From positions 1 to 21,453 of IMG/VR virus record IMGVR_UViG_3300025093_001524: DNA of 21,453 nucleotides; one strand, given 5' to 3'. This document shows positions 6,633 to 15,134 of the stretch, piece by piece. The translations under genes and the position numbers were made by a program. The stretch is from a virus. Every line of letters starts with the position of its first letter. Within the stretch, counting starts at the first letter, position 1. The notes under the pieces are model-generated. The model was not told where the DNA came from. It saw nothing but the letters and a program-made list of their open reading frames with translations, and made no database searches.

Positions 6633-6659
6633 ATTATAACGATGACTTTAACTTATCAA
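6633..6659 (-). promoter_or_regulatory. Candidate promoter upstream of gp41
   Basis: TTGATA (6654-6659) and a perfect TATAAT (6633-6638) on the minus strand, 15 bases apart, with 12 bases from the -10 box to the ATG at 6620. Predicted leader about 5 bases, with no Shine-Dalgarno sequence. Confidence 0.5.
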
Positions 6660-7462
6660 GTTAAGTTTTCATTTAACCATTGGATAATTTTATTGTCAGG
6701 TTTCCATTTAAGTAGTTTATATAGATCAGAAGTATCAGCTATAGATGTTACTATTTCACCGGGCCTGGGAGGTTCATATTCCTTAAATTTACCTATCAAA
6801 TTAGCAATGTCTTTTATCAATGTTCCTTCCCCCGTACCAATTTGAATTGAGTCTACAGGAATTTTATTCCAATTTAAGTTTAAATTAGCTAATTTGTAAA
6901 TAGACTCACATACATCGTCAACATGAACAAAATCTCTTACATTATTACCATAATTGTATAAATGTATGATTTTATTTTTATCTCTTATATTTTTAAACAA
7001 GTTAATAACACTATCACTAGTATCACCATCACCATATACATTAAAAAACCGAAGAGCCAAAGCATTAACACCCCAATTTTCCCTAAAATGTTTTATATAC
7101 TGTTCATTTACTTGTTTAGTAAAACCGTAAAAGGTAGAAGACATTTTATCTGTTACAGCTGCTGAAGATGCATGAAAAAGTTGTATACTTTTATTAAATC
7201 TAAGACTGTTTAATATATTAAAAAGACCTGTAACGTTAGTATCGTGATAATTTTTTAAATTACACTCACCAAAATTAGTTTTTAACCCAGCTAGATTTAC
7301 TACAATATCATGATCTTCGATAATTTTAACTTTTTTACTATCAAATTTTGTTATATCGAAAGTATCTATATCAACAGCGGTAACAGTTTGATTTTTATCG
7401 AGTAAAAACCTACTTAAATTTTTACCAATAAAACCTTTACCGCCAATTAAAAGGTATTTCAT
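6656..7462 (-). CDS. NAD-dependent sugar epimerase/dehydratase, extended SDR
   Basis: A 268-residue protein with Rossmann loop GGKGFIGKNL (7-16), a VVNLAG strand (54-59) typical of nucleotide-sugar epimerases, a HASSAAV segment (98-104) carrying the catalytic Ser region, and Y112-x3-K116 (YGFTK). RFFNVYG (about 150-156) and RDFVHVDDV (about 183-191) are family hallmarks of GalE-like enzymes. It is somewhat shorter than a typical GalE (about 330). Substrate unknown: UDP-glucose/galactose or another NDP-sugar. Its start overlaps the stop of the GDP-mannose epimerase gene (ATGA), so the pair are translated together and may act in one pathway. Confidence 0.88.
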   Translation of the reverse strand: MKYLLIGGKGFIGKNLSRFLLDKNQTVTAVDIDTFDITKFDSKKVKIIEDHDIVVNLAGLKTNFGECNLKNYHDTNVTGLFNILNSLRFNKSIQLFHASSAAVTDKMSSTFYGFTKQVNEQYIKHFRENWGVNALALRFFNVYGDGDTSDSVINLFKNIRDKNKIIHLYNYGNNVRDFVHVDDVCESIYKLANLNLNWNKIPVDSIQIGTGEGTLIKDIANLIGKFKEYEPPRPGEIVTSIADTSDLYKLLKWKPDNKIIQWLNENLT

Positions 7463-8529
7463 TTATCGAGGTCGATTTGCTGCTTTATCCATCTATAAGT
7501 TGTTTGCAACCCATCTTTTAGCCGGTATTTGGGTGACCATCCAAGTTTTTCTTGAATAAGAGTATTATCGCTATTTCTACCCTTAACGCCTGTTGGAGCA
7601 TCGAGTTTATATTCCCGTTTAACGGTGAATCCTTTGATAGATTCCAATACAGTGACCATATCATTAATAGACACCATTTCATCTGAACCAATATTTACCG
7701 GTCCTGTAAAATCAGATTGCATTAATCTACGAATACCTTCAATACACTCTCTAATAAACAAAAATGAACGGGTTTGTTTACCATCACCCCAAATTTCTAA
7801 CGTTCCGCCTTTTTCGATTTCAGCAAATTTACGACATAGTGCAGCAGGGGCCTTTTCTCTCCCTCCTTTATATGTTCCCTCAGGTCCGTAAATATTATGA
7901 AAGCGTGCAATACGAACGGGAATACCCCTATTCCTATTATAAGCAAGGTATAACCTTTCGCTAAATAGTTTTTCCCATCCATATTCACTGTCTGGGTTTG
8001 CTGGGTATGCTGAACTTTCTTCACAGTTAGGGTTCTCCGGGTCTAATTGGTTATGTTCTGGGTACATACACGCAGAGCTACTGTAGAAAATTTTAGTGTC
8101 AATAGGTTCGTAAGAAATATGATTTAAACGAGCTTCATGATACCAATCAGATCGAACATACTGGTTCAATTCATCTACAGCCTTTAATATATTTAAGTTG
8201 ATAGATGCCGAGTTCTGCATAACAGCTGCATCGTTCTCCCCAGTGAAAATATAACCAGCTCCTCCCATATCAGCAGCAAGTTGGTAAATTTCGTCAAATT
8301 GTTCTCTATATTGTTTAGGAGTACTACTATAAAAATCTCCTGTAGCTACTATTTCTTTTACAAAATCATAATTAGTTAAATCACCACCAATAAATTCATC
8401 AGCGTCTGTTTTCGAAAATTCAGGTTCTTTTAGATCCACTGCTCGAACCCAGTAACCTTCTTCTTTAAGACGGGTAACAAGGTGACTTCCAATAAAACCA
8501 CCTCCACCGCAAACTAGTGCTCTTTTCAT
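7459..8529 (-). CDS. GDP-mannose 3,5-epimerase
   Basis: A 356-residue extended SDR with strong resemblance to plant GDP-mannose 3,5-epimerase (GME). It has CGGGGFIGSHL (7-17), LAADMGGAGYI (84-94), SSSACMYPE (150-158), YGWEK (183-187), RFHNIYGPEGTYKGGREKAP (209-228), then WGDGKQTRSFLFI and PVNIGSDEMVSIN. The residues known as catalytic in the Arabidopsis enzyme (C145, Y174, K178, K217) all have counterparts at a constant offset of 9: C154, Y183, K187, K226. The reaction expected is conversion of GDP-D-mannose to GDP-L-galactose and/or GDP-L-gulose, in the cytoplasm. The likely use is L-galactose-type units for a glycan or a DNA modification, together with the adjacent epimerase and glycosyltransferase. 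It has its own promoter-like element. Confidence 0.93.
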   Translation of the reverse strand: MKRALVCGGGGFIGSHLVTRLKEEGYWVRAVDLKEPEFSKTDADEFIGGDLTNYDFVKEIVATGDFYSSTPKQYREQFDEIYQLAADMGGAGYIFTGENDAAVMQNSASINLNILKAVDELNQYVRSDWYHEARLNHISYEPIDTKIFYSSSACMYPEHNQLDPENPNCEESSAYPANPDSEYGWEKLFSERLYLAYNRNRGIPVRIARFHNIYGPEGTYKGGREKAPAALCRKFAEIEKGGTLEIWGDGKQTRSFLFIRECIEGIRRLMQSDFTGPVNIGSDEMVSINDMVTVLESIKGFTVKREYKLDAPTGVKGRNSDNTLIQEKLGWSPKYRLKDGLQTTYRWIKQQIDLDK

Positions 8530-8536
8530 ATAAAGT

Positions 8537-8564
8537 ATTATATCAAATAATCTTATTAGATCAA
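8537..8564 (-). promoter_or_regulatory. Promoter-like element for the GDP-mannose epimerase gene
   Basis: TTGATC (8559-8564), 16 bases, a perfect TATAAT (8537-8542), then 7 bases to the ATG at 8529 on the minus strand. The -35 box overlaps the last codons of the amidotransferase gene. Confidence 0.62.
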
Positions 8565-9167
8565 TGCAAAAGGGTTATTACTTTTAAATTTACCCACCGC
8601 AGTAATAGTATCCTTAATAAGATAAACAACTCCATCTTTTAAAGATTCGCTATTTTCAAATTTTACTGATGAAAATGTATCCTTATTGTAAAATAATGTA
8701 CTTCCTTGTTTAACCAAATACATATTACCACTTAATTTATTAATTATCCAACAAGCAAAAGTACCTTCTAATAAACTACATACATTTTCTATAGAACTTA
8801 GTTCTCCTTTATTCTCCTTATCGAGAAGAGCTGGTATATAACTACTATCGATATCACAATTATGTTCTTTTAAAAGACTTCTATGATTTGTTAAAACACC
8901 GTTATGAGCTACTGCCCACTCACTTAAAACAAATGGGTGTGATGTACTAAAATCATAATTTCTAACTGATGATGTAGGTGCTTGATCATGTGTGAGTATG
9001 TATTTTGCATTGTTTAAAGGTTTAATATACCCCCTACCTCTAGTAGTCATAAATTTATTATCTTTATTCTTAAAGACAGCACTAAATGCAAAACCACCTC
9101 GTTTATGATTCAATTCATACAATGAATCGTATTGTTTTTTATCACTTGTTCCAAATATTGCACACAT
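8556..9167 (-). CDS. Stand-alone class II glutamine amidotransferase domain
   Basis: The start is placed at 9167 because the family needs a cysteine straight after the initiator Met as nucleophile, and the protein then begins MCAIFGT. An in-frame ATG 24 bases upstream would bury that Cys. The 203-residue protein has RGGFAFSA (23-30), THDQAPTS (59-66), AHNG (87-90) with the oxyanion-hole Asn and Gly, and EGTFAC (134-139). The family releases ammonia from glutamine and channels it to a partner domain. No synthetase domain is fused here, so a partner protein is expected. Candidates are the QueC-like enzyme two genes upstream or an unseen sugar or amide synthase. The Arg of the GlmS-type HTRWAT motif is replaced by Gln62. 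The stop of the preceding gene and this ATG are one base apart, with GGAA as a weak ribosome-binding site. Confidence 0.87.
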   Translation of the reverse strand: MCAIFGTSDKKQYDSLYELNHKRGGFAFSAVFKNKDNKFMTTRGRGYIKPLNNAKYILTHDQAPTSSVRNYDFSTSHPFVLSEWAVAHNGVLTNHRSLLKEHNCDIDSSYIPALLDKENKGELSSIENVCSLLEGTFACWIINKLSGNMYLVKQGSTLFYNKDTFSSVKFENSESLKDGVVYLIKDTITAVGKFKSNNPFALI

Positions 9168-9168
9168 A

Positions 9169-9846
9169 TTATTTTTTCCATTTAGTATCATGAATTTTAC
9201 AACAACCTTCAGTCATGTTATAAAAATCACCTTCATTAATATATCGATGGGACTGACCATTTAAATGATAAACTTGAGTGCTTGTAATTAATGCATGTTT
9301 ATAGTCAGGTTTCTGCTTTTTTAATGAATTTACCATGTCATTATCTTGACACCAAAATATAAATTTTTCATCTAAAGGTAAAATTTTATCTAAAACAGAT
9401 TTTTTAAAAATTACACACCACCCGCAAAAATGAGTCCCAACTTCGTCACCTAATACGTACGGTCTTTCTAAACCTTTATGTTTTTCGTGCTTTGGACACA
9501 ACGGAGATGCAGAATCTAAATCTAATTTTTTAATAGTTCTTATTGACCTATCATACCAACCTTCTGAAAACACAAGATCGTTATTAGATATAATTATTAT
9601 ATCAGATTTACAATGTTTGAGACCAATATTAAGAGCTTTATTATAATTAAATTTTTCTTCTAACAAAATTACATTAGCATCTTTATATTTTCGTTTAACG
9701 TCTTTTTCGTAGTTAGAATTAGATTCTATTAAATTAATGTTAAACTTAAATTTTGATTCACTCGAAAGTAAAGATTTAATGCAATTCTGTGTCATTCTAA
9801 ATGACTCTAAATCTTTAGTTACGGATAACATGACTACATCAATCAT
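9169..9846 (-). CDS. Glycosyltransferase, GT-A fold, family 2-like
   Basis: A 225-residue protein with the GT-A layout: an N-terminal strand IDVVMLSVTKDL, an NLIESNSN segment (38-45), NYNKALNIGL (68-77) typical of family 2 enzymes, and SDIIIISNNDL (81-91), where NND (88-90) stands in for the metal-binding DxD. A later FIFWCQDNDM segment fits the acceptor or catalytic-base region of this family. There are no membrane segments, so it is probably a soluble cytoplasmic enzyme. Donor and acceptor are unknown. The neighbours suggest a product of the GDP-mannose epimerase or RmlA branch as donor. The promoter lies inside the start of the divergent plus-strand gene. Confidence 0.85.
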   Translation of the reverse strand: MIDVVMLSVTKDLESFRMTQNCIKSLLSSESKFKFNINLIESNSNYEKDVKRKYKDANVILLEEKFNYNKALNIGLKHCKSDIIIISNNDLVFSEGWYDRSIRTIKKLDLDSASPLCPKHEKHKGLERPYVLGDEVGTHFCGWCVIFKKSVLDKILPLDEKFIFWCQDNDMVNSLKKQKPDYKHALITSTQVYHLNGQSHRYINEGDFYNMTEGCCKIHDTKWKK

Positions 9847-9857: not shown

Positions 9858-9884
9858 TAATAGATGAAAGACAAAGATACTCAA
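9857..9884 (-). promoter_or_regulatory. Promoter-like element for the glycosyltransferase gene
   Basis: TTGAGT (9879-9884), 16 bases, TATTAT (9857-9862) on the minus strand, with 10 bases to the ATG at 9846. It lies largely within the first codons of the plus-strand gene. Confidence 0.42.
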
Positions 9885-10412
9885 TTCTTATTTGAATCTT
9901 ATTTAAAGTCTTTAGAAGAAGGCAGAAAAAAGACTTTCAAAGACAGAGAACGTAAAACTGTTATTGATCCTGATACGGGAGAAGAAAGAAAAGAGTCTTA
10001 TTATGAAATGATGATGAGACTTAAAGGTAAGGGTACGGGTGCAAGAACTAGAGCTTTAAGACAACAAAAAGAAAAAACTAGTTCTAAAGTTAAATTAGGA
10101 AAAAGAGAATTTAAAGTAGCGGACAAAGCTTATGAAGAAAGACTTAACACAGGTCAAAAAGATATTATAAGATTTATTGAAGCAGATGATACCGCGAAAG
10201 CAAGTGATATTCTAAAATTCTTAAAGAAAACAGGAATGGATGCTAAAGAAGCGGAAGTTTTATTAGGTGGCATGATAACTGACGGATTCATAGATGAAGT
10301 ATTTGGTGATACACAAGAAACAGTTAGTGATGAAGATAAAGCGGTAGATATTGAACCTACCGCTATGTTAGACACTGAATACGATGATGGTGACGATTTA
10401 GAAGATATTTAA
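9864..10412 (+). CDS. Unknown 182-residue protein, only plus-strand gene, possible winged helix
   Basis: A highly charged soluble protein. The N-terminal helix TQFLFESYLKSLEEG (6-20) resembles the start of many small T4-like phage proteins. A basic region (about 21-90, with KGKGTGARTRALRQQKEK at 54-71) follows, then a segment at about 98-146 whose helix and turn pattern could be a winged helix-turn-helix: KDIIRFIEADD, ASDILKFLKKTG, DAKEAEVLLGGMITDGFI. The tail is strongly acidic (TEYDDGDDLEDI). DNA binding is therefore plausible but unproven. Codon use looks like that of the neighbours. It is divergent from the glycosyltransferase gene (17 bases between start codons) and convergent with queC, sharing the bases TTAA for both stop codons. 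It could be a regulator or a small virion protein. Confidence 0.85.
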   Translation: MKDKDTQFLFESYLKSLEEGRKKTFKDRERKTVIDPDTGEERKESYYEMMMRLKGKGTGARTRALRQQKEKTSSKVKLGKREFKVADKAYEERLNTGQKDIIRFIEADDTAKASDILKFLKKTGMDAKEAEVLLGGMITDGFIDEVFGDTQETVSDEDKAVDIEPTAMLDTEYDDGDDLEDI

Positions 10413-11206
10413 GAACCTCGACTACCGCCTTTACTTAAAAGAAAATCTACCGGACACGGTTTAGCGTCATATTCTTCCCAAAACACACTAAGGTCTTGTT
10501 TGTATGGTTGAGGGTCAATATACCCAGCTTCACCAAAGCCTTTAATTCTCAAAGCACTACTTGGGGTGGTAGCATCAGCAAGTTCATTTCCACTATAACA
10601 TGTATATGTTTGTGAAAAGTCCACCTTATGTTCTATACCATACTCAATAATATCCTTCTTATCCATGTTAAGCAATGGACACTCAAGAGTAATTCTATTA
10701 GTTCTATTTAGCGCAATAAGTTCACCAAATTTAGTTCTAAATTCTTCACTACCATCCCAGTAACCAGCTAAACTATCAACTTTAGTAGCACCGTGATAAA
10801 TTTTACTTGCACCAATATTTTCTGCATACATTGCAGCAAAGGTTAGAAACAACTGATTACGAAATGGTACATAACTAGCTGGTTGAGCTTCACCCACCAT
10901 ATCATTTACATCGGGATTATCAATATCTTCATTAGTAAGTGAACTAACGTTACTAGTTAATTCTTTTAATACTTGTAAATCAATCGTTTTGTGTACAATT
11001 TTATGATGTTCAAAAGCATGACTAAACGATAAAATTTCAGCTTGTTCAATTTGAGTTTTTGCACACTCAAGTTCCCTTTTATGCCGTTGTCCGTAATCAA
11101 AAGTTAAAAGATGTAACTCATTAACACTGTACTGTTGCATTCGTAACAATACAGCACTATCCATACCACCACTAAACGGCATTACAGCTTTAGTAATTTC
11201 ACTCAT
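10409..11206 (-). CDS. queC: QueC-like PP-loop ATPase (7-cyano-7-deazaguanine synthase family) lacking most of the zinc site
   Basis: A 265-residue protein. The PP-loop SGGMDS (12-17), TFDYGQRH (35-42), YVPFRNQLFL (112-121), YHGATKVDSLAGYWDG (137-152) and ECPLLNMDKKDI (175-186) all fit QueC, which converts 7-carboxy-7-deazaguanine, ATP and ammonia to preQ0. QueC normally ends with four zinc cysteines spaced C-x7-8-C-x2-C-x2-C. Here C203 of TCYSGNEL is kept but the next three positions are D211, T214 and S217, with no gap in the alignment, and the following LRIKGFGEAGYIDP is intact. The enzyme may work without zinc or have changed substrate. No queD, queE, folE or tRNA/DNA transglycosylase gene is in the window. 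Host metabolism or other phage genes would have to supply the precursor. Confidence 0.88.
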   Translation of the reverse strand: MSEITKAVMPFSGGMDSAVLLRMQQYSVNELHLLTFDYGQRHKRELECAKTQIEQAEILSFSHAFEHHKIVHKTIDLQVLKELTSNVSSLTNEDIDNPDVNDMVGEAQPASYVPFRNQLFLTFAAMYAENIGASKIYHGATKVDSLAGYWDGSEEFRTKFGELIALNRTNRITLECPLLNMDKKDIIEYGIEHKVDFSQTYTCYSGNELADATTPSSALRIKGFGEAGYIDPQPYKQDLSVFWEEYDAKPCPVDFLLSKGGSRGS

Positions 11207-11212
11207 AAAATG

Positions 11213-11240
11213 ATTATAGTACCGTTACCAATATTTACCA
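11213..11240 (-). promoter_or_regulatory. Promoter-like element for queC
   Basis: A perfect TATAAT (11213-11218) on the minus strand, 6 bases from the ATG at 11206. The hexamer 16 bases further up is TGGTAA (11235-11240), a poor -35. The -10 position matches the other copies. Confidence 0.4.
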
Positions 11241-12829
11241 TAGTAAAAATCTTCAATTACTAGATAATCCATTTGTGAGTTATTAAGAACCCACATTGCA
11301 TCAGCAATAGTATTAAGAATAGGTTTACCTGCAATATTAAATGAGGTATTTAGAAGAACTCCATGGCCTGCTTTTTGTTCAAAAACCGTTAAAAGATCAT
11401 ACAACCATTCATTTTGTTCTCTTGTTACTGTCTGTAATCTTGCTGTTCCGTCAACATGTGTAATAGATGATAATTTTTCTTGCCATTCTTCTCTTACCCT
11501 TGGGCAATATAACATATGGCGTGATTCACCTTCCCACTCAAAATATTTCGATGCATCTTCTAATCTACAAACAGGTGCAAAAGGTCTATACCATTCACGA
11601 TGTTTTACTTTATGATTAAGAATATCTTTCATTTCGGGGAATGCGGGGTTGCAAATAATGGACCTGTTCCCCAACGCCCTTGGTCCATGTTCACACCTTC
11701 CTCTTGCAACCCCAAAAATTTTACCATTACACAATTCATTAGTTATAATTTCATGTGTTGCAGGTCTTGCTACATTACTTTCAATCCACGCTGGGTATGT
11801 ATTTTTATCTATTAATTCTGTACCACCGTACGTAATATCAATAGGGGTATCGGGCTTATTCCAACCTGCCAAAAGACCCACAGCAATTCCACAGTCATTA
11901 GTATTAGGAGCCACGAAAACACCCCGCTCAGGATAACGTTCTCGTAAGTCAGTACTAAGTAAAATATTAAGGCCGCAGCCACCAGTAATAATAATTGGTA
12001 AGTCATTATATTTGTCTAAGTAGGGTTGAGCTACTTCGTAAAAACATTCTTCAAAAGCCTTTTGTGATGTTGCTGCAACGTCCCAACTTAATTCACTTGC
12101 AAGTCTATTGTTTTCATCAAATACTAACCCACAAGGATCACCAATATAATCTTTCAAATATTGAATATAATTTTCCCCATCAGGTTTAGCATAATAAAAT
12201 TTCTTGAAATGAGGTAACCATTCTTCTCTTACTTTTCCAAAGTTACATAACCCCATTATTTTTCCACTATAAACTAGATTACCATCCGAAATCCATTCTT
12301 GTTTAATATCGGTACAAAAATGAGCAAAACACATGTAAGGAAATCCGAAATCGTAATCGTAATTAGTTCGTTCGGCGGGGTTGGTTTTATCAAGATATGT
12401 AACACCATTGGCTCTATCGGCTGTAAAAATATTGAAAAAACCATCATTACCACCGCCGTCGAAACTAAAAATTAAAGCTTTATTAAAATCTGATTGGTAA
12501 AACGAACCACTTGCATGAGCATGATGATGCCAACCTTCATATACATTTTTAGCAGGAATATAATCTTTATAACTGTAAGTTATATCATCATGTACACATT
12601 CGGTGTTAATATGAATCATATTTTCAAATGGACCTTTTAACCCAAGTTCCTTATCAATATAATCCAGTATAGCGTATACAGCCTCTTCACGATAGCGAAG
12701 AGGCTTATACTGAGCTAAACCGATATTTTTTACATTAAAAAATCGTTCGAATTCAATAACGTGATACTCACCATTATTTTCTAATGCGATCGCGCCATTA
12801 TGAGAGCCGTATATTGCGATGTTAGCCAT
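11225..12829 (-). CDS. O-carbamoyltransferase, NodU/CmcH/TobZ family
   Basis: A 534-residue two-domain enzyme. The N-terminal Kae1-like domain has HHHAHASGSF (101-110) and SFDGGGNDG (122-130), the metal- and nucleotide-binding motifs of this family. GGCGLN (283-288) follows, and the C-terminal YrdC-like part shows GRCEHGPRALGNRS (377-390), a family hallmark. The family uses carbamoyl phosphate and ATP to place a carbamoyl group on a hydroxyl of a sugar, antibiotic or similar acceptor. Size matches NodU-like enzymes (about 550-600). T4-like cyanophages often carry one, target unknown. Here it stands between uvsX (6-base gap) and queC (18-base gap), with sugar genes nearby, so a phage glycan or modified base is the probable acceptor. 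Confidence 0.92.
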   Translation of the reverse strand: MANIAIYGSHNGAIALENNGEYHVIEFERFFNVKNIGLAQYKPLRYREEAVYAILDYIDKELGLKGPFENMIHINTECVHDDITYSYKDYIPAKNVYEGWHHHAHASGSFYQSDFNKALIFSFDGGGNDGFFNIFTADRANGVTYLDKTNPAERTNYDYDFGFPYMCFAHFCTDIKQEWISDGNLVYSGKIMGLCNFGKVREEWLPHFKKFYYAKPDGENYIQYLKDYIGDPCGLVFDENNRLASELSWDVAATSQKAFEECFYEVAQPYLDKYNDLPIIITGGCGLNILLSTDLRERYPERGVFVAPNTNDCGIAVGLLAGWNKPDTPIDITYGGTELIDKNTYPAWIESNVARPATHEIITNELCNGKIFGVARGRCEHGPRALGNRSIICNPAFPEMKDILNHKVKHREWYRPFAPVCRLEDASKYFEWEGESRHMLYCPRVREEWQEKLSSITHVDGTARLQTVTREQNEWLYDLLTVFEQKAGHGVLLNTSFNIAGKPILNTIADAMWVLNNSQMDYLVIEDFYYGKYW

Positions 12830-12835
12830 ATAAGG

Positions 12836-13924
12836 CTATTTACCGTACTTATAGGCAGATTTCAACTTTTTATCCAATTCTGGAATGATAAATTTTTCCC
12901 AAAGATCTTCATCTTTACGCCAATTTTTGTAATAACCAATTTTATCACCCACTTTACGCTTACCGTCTTCACTCTCAATACCAATTTGAAAGGTAGAACC
13001 AGTTTGGGTAAGTATTCCATGGTTAACAGCCATTTCTTTAATACCACTATATTTGTCTAGACCTGATTTATAGTTAAGATAAATTTCTGCTTGCAACAAA
13101 GGGGGTACAAAACGATTCTTGGTAGTTAAAAATCTTAGAGTAGTACCAGAATAGTTACGAGCTTCTGGTAGAATTTCATCTTCATCGTTACTTGCATCCT
13201 GACGTTCGTTTTTCTTAGCAAGCTGACATAGAATAGAAGCCATATATTGTGGTCCACTTCCACCTGCTGCTTGTTTAATCAACGAAGGCATCAAAGCAGA
13301 TGGGTCATCATAGGTATGGTTACTGAATAAAATAGTACAACCAGCAGCTCCTGCTTTATAAGTAAGAATACGCATCATAGATTTAAGTTGTTTAGCTCTA
13401 AGACCCATATCCATTGCAGACTTATCTTTAGCAGCGTCATCTACTTCTTTTTGAGATGCAAGATTACCTAATGAATCAATAGAAATAATAAATTTACCTT
13501 GCAAACCTTTTTCTACAATTGAATCTAAAAATGCGACTACTTGATTTCTACATTGTTCTACGGTATAAACGGGTACATATTTTGTTTTACTTGCATCAAG
13601 ACCCACACCTTCAGTACTTGCAGCATCTACTGCAAACTCAGTATCAAAAATAACAGGGTGTACTCCTTGTTTTTGAGCATTACCTAGAATTTTATTAATG
13701 ATAAAAGTTTTACCTGATTGAGACGGGCCTGCAAACCCTACTAACCTACCTTTTGGTACTCCACCTTCACGACAACTACCACCTAGAATAGCATTTAAGG
13801 CATAACAACCGGTGTCGTACCACGTATCTACATTAGATAAAGAATTTTCACTCAAATATGTTGCTTCGGGATTAAGTTTATCTAAACTTGCAAATACATC
13901 ACTAAATTCATCTTTTTTTGCCAT
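12836..13924 (-). CDS. uvsX: RecA-like recombinase UvsX
   Basis: A 362-residue RecA-fold protein; T4 UvsX has 391. Walker A is GPSQSGKT (66-73) inside GFAGPSQSGKTFIINK. Walker B is FIISIDSLGNL (about 145-155), and LFSNHTYDD (about 199-207) sits at the RecA L1/motif region. Its N-terminus is short and lacks a long oligomerisation helix. Role: ATP-dependent strand exchange on gp32-coated ssDNA, with UvsY (not seen here), for repair and recombination-dependent replication. It begins a new transcription unit directly after a strong terminator and has one of the best promoter matches in the window. Confidence 0.93.
   Translation of the reverse strand: MAKKDEFSDVFASLDKLNPEATYLSENSLSNVDTWYDTGCYALNAILGGSCREGGVPKGRLVGFAGPSQSGKTFIINKILGNAQKQGVHPVIFDTEFAVDAASTEGVGLDASKTKYVPVYTVEQCRNQVVAFLDSIVEKGLQGKFIISIDSLGNLASQKEVDDAAKDKSAMDMGLRAKQLKSMMRILTYKAGAAGCTILFSNHTYDDPSALMPSLIKQAAGGSGPQYMASILCQLAKKNERQDASNDEDEILPEARNYSGTTLRFLTTKNRFVPPLLQAEIYLNYKSGLDKYSGIKEMAVNHGILTQTGSTFQIGIESEDGKRKVGDKIGYYKNWRKDEDLWEKFIIPELDKKLKSAYKYGK
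12837..12865 (-). promoter_or_regulatory. Promoter-like element for the carbamoyltransferase gene
   Basis: TTGAAA (12860-12865), 17 bases, TAAATA (12837-12842), then 7 bases to the ATG at 12829 on the minus strand. It is embedded in the 3' end of uvsX. Confidence 0.4.
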
Positions 13925-14383: not shown

Positions 14384-14410
14384 ATTATATTGTTATCTGA
14401 GTATTTCCAA
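14384..14410 (-). promoter_or_regulatory. Candidate promoter for the 122-residue gene
   Basis: TTGGAA (14405-14410), 15 bases, a perfect TATAAT (14384-14389) on the minus strand, and 10 bases to the ATG at 14373. Weaker -35 and different spacing from the main set. Confidence 0.4.
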
Positions 14411-15134
14411 CCACTCTTGCTGTTCTATTTTGAATAGCTTTAACATAATTACCAGCTTCTAACAAATGGTCGTGGGTTCCGCAATCAAACCAAGCCATAT
14501 CTTCCGGAAGAATAGTAACACCCATTTTACCTTCATCTAAATACATGTTAATAAGATCAGTAATTTCAATTTCACCTCTTGCTGACGGTTTTACTTGCTT
14601 TGCTTTTTCAATAACTGTGTTATCAAAATGATATAATCCAGGCACTGCTTTATCTGACGGTGGTATTTCTGGTTTTTCAATAATACGTTTAATTACACCT
14701 AAATTATAATCGATATCCAATACACCGTAAGCTTTAGGGTCCTTCACCGTTACCCCGTAAATAGTATTTACAGAACCTAAAAAAGGAAATTCGCCGTCAA
14801 ATATATTATCTCCAAGTATCAATGTTACGTTTGAATCACCAACAAACTTTTCACCTACAATAAATGCATCACTCAATCCTTTAGGTTCATGTTGTATTTC
14901 ATATTTAAAATTAACATCTTTTATCGGGTATGTAGCTTCAACCATATGCTCAAGATGCATAGACGAAGGTCCTATAATTAATATTTCTCTTATACCAAAC
15001 CCTAATAATGTGGATATAGGGTAATATAATAGTGGTTTATCGTAAACCGGTAATAGAGCTTTTGTTGTCCCGTAAGTTAAAGGGTAAAGCCTAGTACCTT
15101 TACCACCTGCTAAAATTATACCTTTTCTATTCAT
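14385..15134 (-). CDS. rmlA: Glucose-1-phosphate thymidylyltransferase-like nucleotidyltransferase
   Basis: A 249-residue sugar nucleotidyltransferase. The N-terminal pyrophosphorylase loop is LAGGKGTRLYPLT (8-20) with K25 downstream. LILGDNIFDG (about 105-114) holds the metal-binding Asp. WFDCGTHDHLLEAGNYV near the C-terminus matches the W-x-DTGT-x2-SLLEA motif of RmlA. RmlA proteins usually have about 290 residues, so the C-terminal allosteric part is trimmed, as in RmlA-like and RffH-like short forms. The expected product is dTDP-glucose (or UDP-glucose), the entry to deoxysugars. The start is one base after the gp43 stop, and its strong AGGAG site lies within the last gp43 codons, so its translation should track that of the polymerase. 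Confidence 0.9.
   Translation of the reverse strand: MNRKGIILAGGKGTRLYPLTYGTTKALLPVYDKPLLYYPISTLLGFGIREILIIGPSSMHLEHMVEATYPIKDVNFKYEIQHEPKGLSDAFIVGEKFVGDSNVTLILGDNIFDGEFPFLGSVNTIYGVTVKDPKAYGVLDIDYNLGVIKRIIEKPEIPPSDKAVPGLYHFDNTVIEKAKQVKPSARGEIEITDLINMYLDEGKMGVTILPEDMAWFDCGTHDHLLEAGNYVKAIQNRTARVVGNTQITI

Follow-up and report, generated by a model that had tools for sequence, protein, structure and literature searches.

The question raised by this locus is what becomes of a QueC-family enzyme once most of its zinc site is gone. A recent survey of QueC describes zinc as something the enzyme cannot work without and regards the Cys4 motif as the family's hallmark (PMC13329287), which counts against the reading favoured here, that the protein still makes preQ0. 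The window, by which we mean the whole 21,453-nucleotide stretch of viral DNA under analysis (IMG/VR record IMGVR_UViG_3300025093_001524), encodes the protein with the following sites.

10409..11206, minus strand: QueC-family ATP pyrophosphatase, zinc-less, 265 aa (PF06508, E=6.8e-50).
11156..11173, minus strand: PP loop SGGMDS, residues 12-17, with G13, G14, D16 and S17 invariant within the clade.
10751..10762, minus strand: YWDG, residues 149-152, where canonical QueC has YPDC; invariant in zinc-less proteins and their nearest zinc-kept relatives.
10595..10600, minus strand: C203-Y204, the first zinc cysteine and the next tyrosine, both kept and invariant in the marine relatives and the outgroup examined.
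10556..10576, minus strand: D211-x2-T214-x2-S217 replacing CxxCxxC; 86 of 103 distinct homologues read C/D/[TSN]/S (one of them C/S/T/S).
10454..10456, minus strand: C251, a cysteine of the C-terminal extension; zinc-kept relatives are without a tail cysteine.

A sequence-only reading of this DNA had claimed that the last three zinc cysteines are D211, T214 and S217 in a clean frame, and both claims are borne out. There is no frame problem in the open reading frame at 10409-11206, the codons are C203 (10598-10600, TGT), D211 (10574-10576, GAT), T214 (10565-10567, ACC) and S217 (10556-10558, AGT), and the zinc motif C(x)8CxxCxxC falls on these four residues free of gaps when the window (CYSGNELADATTPSSALR) is aligned with the zinc-bearing homologue L066 (CYEGKDKACGECTSCSSR). 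A read error or frameshift behind D/T/S is excluded by the recurrence of the pattern in 86 distinct sequences. The PP loop and the substrate-side motifs had also been described as intact, which is true of SGGMDS, of YGQRHxxE (YGQRHKRE, residues 38-45; YxQxHxxE in the family) and of VPFRN (113-117; VPxRN) but not of YPDC, which reads YWDG: of that motif the aspartate remains, as does the tyrosine that E. coli QueC cannot do without. Since YWDG is also found in the nearest four-cysteine relatives, the change in YPDC preceded the loss of zinc. The residues Y35, R99, Y131 and Y189 that are essential in E. coli QueC (Libby et al., 2026; PMC13329287) have their equivalents in Y38, R116, Y149 and Y204 of the window protein, Y204 being the counterpart of the essential Y189.

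Solved QueC structures are matched by the window protein at E=1e-25 (2pg3) and E=1.6e-19 (3bl5), and structure prediction, proposed earlier as a check, gave a model of mean pLDDT 80 whose best match is indeed a QueC, that of B. subtilis (3bl5; Z 18.7, rmsd 3.1, 189 residues), followed by Cap9 9nto (Z 18.5), E. carotovora QueC 2pg3 (Z 17.6) and QatC 9y01 (Z 16.7). The fold match to LarE, of which the hallmarks are presumably a sulfur-transfer cysteine or Fe-S cysteines and larB/larC neighbours, is weaker (Z 11.7 against 18.7), and no lar gene was recognised among the named neighbours. Canonical QueC (TIGR00364; 3bl5, 2pg3) and the window protein have in common the fold, the pathway context, the PP loop together with YxQxHxxE and VPxRN, and the zinc-loop Cys-Tyr; the window protein differs in having D/T/S for three zinc cysteines, YWDG for YPDC, and an extra cysteine-bearing C-terminal tail. 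Scored with TIGR00364, the NCBIfam QueC equivalog (cut-off 150.3), the window protein reaches 145.3, zinc-less L008 156.8 and zinc-kept L066 186.1; the L008 score speaks for a retained preQ0 synthase, the narrow shortfall of the window protein against it. Because it has neither the zinc motif nor YPDC, the window protein is filed as one that works like QueC but is a divergent variant, not canonical QueC.

Homologues were gathered by a viral-contig scan, which gave 75, and by a profile scan, which gave 507 confirmed homologues, 80 of them kept. The homologue search, proposed earlier as a check, shows that the D/T/S pattern marks a conserved phage clade of one origin: the 103 distinct proteins, nearly all from metagenomic viral contigs, comprise 72 that read C/D/T/S, 12 C/D/S/S, one C/D/N/S, one C/S/T/S and 17 CCCC, with no intermediate between CCCC and the zinc-less state among them. 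With the motif columns left out, the tree requires one label change and places 45 zinc-less rows together at 99/99, L073 (C/D/N/S) being a poorly supported neighbour of that group, and the median dN/dS of QueC is 0.097 (381 pairs, dS 0.2 to 1.0), indicative of purifying selection. Given the single origin on the tree, this selection and the shared pattern, the zinc-less state is old and maintained. No relative was confirmed in bacterial genome contigs, which were scanned with just two peptide patterns and thus provide weak evidence of absence. A 17-kb contig, IMGVR_UViG_3300030107_007843 (L007 and L030), apparently carries two QueC genes about 14 kb apart, possibly through an assembly join. Locus L078 (CAKLQF020000007.1, 'Acinetobacter phage MD-2021a') is labelled as phage, yet its QueC surroundings (dapD, a sulfate transporter, queE-queC) resemble a bacterial chromosome.

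The contigs with QueC are T4-like, carrying UvsX, gp32, a gp41-like helicase, DNA polymerase and a gp46-like protein (named from sequence and position), and the gene order is UvsX, QueC, one short opposite-strand gene, class II glutaminase and helicase. Around QueC the window contains the following genes.

8556..9167, minus strand: stand-alone class II glutamine amidotransferase (MCAIFG..., 203 aa); GATase_7 match, phrog_12378.
9864..10412, plus strand: 182-aa open reading frame between QueC and glutaminase, conserved in the window's own subclade only (7 loci).
11225..12829, minus strand: carbamoyltransferase (NodU/TobZ-like; PF16861/PF02543), the upstream neighbour in the window's subclade only (7 loci).
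12836..13924, minus strand: UvsX/RecA-like recombinase, named from sequence, a constant upstream neighbour of QueC (73 of 80 loci).

The glutaminase belongs to the QueC operon at 64 of the 80 loci; most of the others end shortly past QueC, an exception being L030, where no glutaminase was found near QueC. Its near-invariant residues include C2 (the nucleophile), R23, H88-N89-G90 (the HNG oxyanion motif) and D107, and the protein encoded at 8556-9167 is the probable ammonia source for QueC. Counted against a preQ0 synthase fed in this way is a glutamine in the marine glutaminase where GlmS-type enzymes have an arginine, presumably a substrate-binding residue. The QueC-glutaminase pair also occurs in KVP40, nt-1 and Vibrio phage 2.275.O, and the same operon is found in the zinc-less loci and in the zinc-kept marine loci L068, L071 and L075, which indicates that it was unchanged when the zinc ligands were lost. 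KVP40 and nt-1 resemble the marine loci in that QueC is followed by a class II glutaminase of phrog_12378, but their QueC keeps four cysteines and these phages use DpdA2, which was not found in the marine contigs. In the Gat-QueC of phage NP1 and archaea, as in the marine pair, a glutaminase works with a QueC module; there the two are fused in one chain with the zinc cysteines kept, whereas the window has separate genes (8556-9167 and 10409-11206). The pair is best seen as a split Gat-QueC, in which the glutaminase would feed ammonia to QueC.

Of the remaining pathway the 21-kb window, a fragment, reveals nothing beyond QueC and glutaminase, which is another point against the favoured reading. 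Five long zinc-less contigs span the region: G001 (154 kb), G002 (171 kb), G012 (93 kb), G021 (197 kb) and G045 (185 kb). Each of the five encodes QueD, QueE, QueF, a small kinase-like ATPase and, by six-frame search, a single QueC. The phage QueF matches PF14819 and PF14489 and keeps SNCRVTSQPDWG, HFHEE and IVESKS, and SNC..QPDWG, HFHEE and ESKS are present in all five spanning contigs; we take SNC..QPDWG, HFHEE and IVESKS to be the catalytic and NADPH motifs of a nitrile reductase. A formyltransferase-like gene (PF00551) adjoins QueF in three of the five (G001, G002, G021), and FolE is present in G021, G045, G033, G034 and others. Within the window's own subclade, FolE, QueD and QueE are found in G033 and G034, and QueE in G035. 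Immediately upstream of the zinc-less QueC of L054, L055 and L076 lies a canonical HGH-type QueD. Elsewhere there is a QueD-like protein reading [AC]FRQ...SHCxx[IL]HGY where QueD of CAjan and NP1 has GHRV...SKCxHLHGH, so that two of three usual zinc histidines look to us to be replaced (G001:87403-88023, G002:94239-94847, L081-L089, L263, RHEph05 gp049, Iggy gp46); both zinc-less-QueC phages and two marine phages with a zinc-kept QueC (G017, G018) have it.

The enzyme that would insert the base was located in the relatives through a comparison with Campylobacter phage CP220 and through structure.

G001:146098-146880 (example): TGT-fold gene of the relatives, assigned by Foldseek and VIA-align.

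This 261-aa protein belongs to phrog_19058, a PHROG that has no assigned function, is present in all five long zinc-less contigs and is 48-50% identical to a CP220 protein. A model of the L150 homologue, identical to the G001 protein, has pLDDT 86; its top 50 Foldseek matches are TGTs only, and VIA-align places the DNA preQ0 insertase DpdA 7ui4 first (Z 17.3, rmsd 3.2, 226 residues), with TGTs tied within 1 Z unit. We take the phrog_19058 transglycosylase to correspond to DpdA3 (Cui et al. 2023), a group reportedly associated with formyl-preQ1. Searches for DpdA1 (phrog_887, phrog_7068), DpdA2 (phrog_10773) and PF01702 gave no match in the long contigs that matter; two weak phrog_7068 matches (G009, G011) fell in a short open reading frame and were judged to be chance. 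Comparison of the transglycosylase by hhalign with two DpdA1 sequences, from shallow alignments, lent no support, solved structures searched with a profile gave no match, and a viral scan for DpdA1 returned three loci only. Near the transglycosylase, QueF is clustered with a formyltransferase-like gene and a NadR/AAA_28-like small kinase (L165:3001-5538, L166, G001:137657-139753, G002:137258-139366), which makes these genes a candidate route to a formylated preQ1 base in DNA. In L165 and L166 a single cluster unites the transglycosylase and a zinc-kept QueC with QueE, FolE, QueF, the formyltransferase-like gene and the kinase-like ATPase.

With a probability of roughly two in three, the window QueC is a preQ0 synthase of a marine T4-like phage, devoted to DNA modification, fed by a glutaminase and operating without the canonical Cys4 zinc site. 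The PP loop of the zinc-less enzyme would adenylate 7-carboxy-7-deazaguanine (CDG), ammonia would be channelled from the stand-alone class II glutaminase of the same operon, and preQ0 would be made via the amide. In relatives with longer contigs the phage QueF would convert preQ0 to preQ1, the base would in some phages pass to the formyltransferase, and the DpdA-type transglycosylase would put it into phage DNA. Presumably D211, T214 and S217 take the place of the zinc knuckle through hydrogen bonds, perhaps aided by C203 and the new tail cysteine. The sequence-only reading had offered a changed reaction, a changed partner or stabilisation without zinc, and it is the last of these that survives best. 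A changed reaction fits poorly with an operon that is the same on either side of the zinc loss and with the co-occurrence of QueD, QueE, QueF and a DpdA-fold gene; because QueD and QueE make CDG and QueF needs a nitrile, loss of zinc without a change of reaction is the simplest reading; were QueC unable to make preQ0, the phage QueF would have to rely on the host. Counted against it, a host QueC could supply preQ0, the phage protein then being free to drift or change.

The unchanged-reaction reading is strengthened by a second zinc-less case in cultured phages. All four cysteines are replaced in QueC of RHEph05, RHph_I36, ART, 83AMN, ply2008005c, Pa-X and Iggy (for example SHTAYDGKYPP....HASVLRA), and QueC of immuto is a third, divergent zinc-less case. 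The tree of zinc loss needs four changes, of which well-supported branches alone force at least three, and the loss in cultured phages is, judging from these sequences, independent of that in the marine clade. Rhizobium phage RHEph05, Achromobacter phage ART, Pseudomonas phages Iggy and Pa-X, Vibrio phage 83AMN and Stenotrophomonas phage ply2008005c resemble the marine phages in having lost the zinc motif amid preQ0-pathway genes. They differ in that the first cysteine is also gone (SHT[AS]YDG and similar), YPDC or a YPDC-like motif is kept, the C-terminal extension is another one and, in the two wider loci viewed (RHEph05 and Iggy), no stand-alone glutaminase is annotated next to QueC. RHEph05 and Iggy have QueE, QueC, QueD, FolE and a DpdA together, and Iggy is described as a dPreQ0 phage (PMC11008142, where Olsen 2023 is cited for it); this supports zinc-less preQ0 synthesis, short of proof because a QueC may also be present in the Iggy host. 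The siphophage loci with zinc-less QueC (L302:6001-6837, RHEph05; L309:4001-5062, Iggy; L303, L304, L305, L307, L300) have their own C-terminal extension, PDPLVLRxW..G[LM]M.LP and similar, and are publicly annotated as plain QueC.

Every complete marine zinc-less protein (84 of 84) has at least one tail cysteine, against none of the 14 zinc-kept proteins with a readable tail, within an extension motif of NNCKxC and variants (C251 in the window). This gain, newly noted here, points to a possible re-wired metal site or to a purely structural role of the tail, and its conservation since the gain is, as a sequence pattern, informative. A broader proposal, less likely than not, would join at least three zinc-site losses with preQ0 synthesis kept, a marine site rebuilt via the tail cysteine (as a metal centre or a thiol partnership with C203) and a QueD short of two zinc histidines into a zinc-sparing 7-deazaguanine DNA-modification pathway. 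The narrower one, somewhat doubtful in our view, is that zinc or some other metal is bound by C203 and one or two tail cysteines (CxxC in about half of the clade), possibly joined by D211, while the reaction is still preQ0 synthesis. Apart from the 84 to 0 association, it could draw on the invariance of C203 despite the loss of its three partners. Yet cysteine loss and gain share one part of the tree, and the association may for that reason be one event; the window protein has a single tail cysteine (C251) and no His-rich replacement, and the siphophage zinc-less QueC is without even the first cysteine.

Other end points are harder to sustain. That QueC goes no further than the amide (ADG), and that the transglycosylase inserts this into DNA, would accord with the 48-50% identity of the transglycosylase to a protein of CP220, a dADG phage whose guanines are reported to be fully replaced by dADG (PMC8306585). 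It is nonetheless unlikely, for the zinc-less phages carry a QueF that acts on a nitrile, and QueC of CP220 keeps its four zinc cysteines, by which a link between zinc loss and dADG is excluded. Less likely again is that QueC and the glutaminase, as a split Gat-QueC, make the archaeosine-type formamidine (G+) from preQ0. Around its catalytic motifs the glutaminase does resemble the Gat domain of Gat-QueC, it is operonic with QueC (in KVP40 and nt-1 also), and nt-1 DNA holds a trace of dG+; but the nt-1 base is mostly dPreQ0, its dG+ is tied to ArcS (PMC6884629), and QueF of the same genomes has a complete nitrile-reductase signature. Least likely of all, and very improbable, is a protein deazaguanylase of the Cap9 or QatC kind, or a non-catalytic QueC with a host enzyme doing the work: QueC relatives with protein substrates exist and the host may have a QueC, but in Cap9 and QatC the zinc cysteines are still present (PMC13329287, PMC13279940), the catalytic residues of the phage protein are conserved under the low dN/dS given above, and no partner gene was recognised nearby. 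The changed partner suggested earlier is likewise unsupported, as no CD-NTase, QatA, QatB or QatD was recognised among the genes identified beside QueC. Cap9 (type IV CBASS) and QatC share the QueC fold with the window protein, but they keep zinc cysteines and have protein partners of a kind not recognised here. The window QueC lacks the cysteine triad of the Cap9 motif CE(x)6CxxCxxC, and no CD-NTase was recognised among its named neighbours; at 265 aa it is also unlike QatC (about 400 aa, N- and C-terminal extensions, C(x)19CGxC, qatABD), with that motif absent and no qat gene recognised among the named neighbours.

If preQ0 synthesis without the canonical zinc site is indeed what these proteins perform, repeated loss of that site with the other pathway genes intact would mean that the zinc site of QueC is structural and replaceable, and the role of zinc would become testable with natural enzymes, those of cultured phages included. 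The same reading predicts 7-deazaguanine DNA, probably of preQ1 type, in these widespread marine T4-like phages, for which no earlier description of such DNA was found, and it would place glutaminase-fed QueC enzymes on offer for nitrile making. A separate observation concerns the genes interleaved with the replication genes of the window: sugar-nucleotide epimerases, a glycosyltransferase, a nucleotidyltransferase and the NodU-like carbamoyltransferase (2-814, 6656-8529, 9169-9846, 11225-12829 and 14385-15134) are arranged as if surface-sugar genes had been inserted between core T4-like genes.
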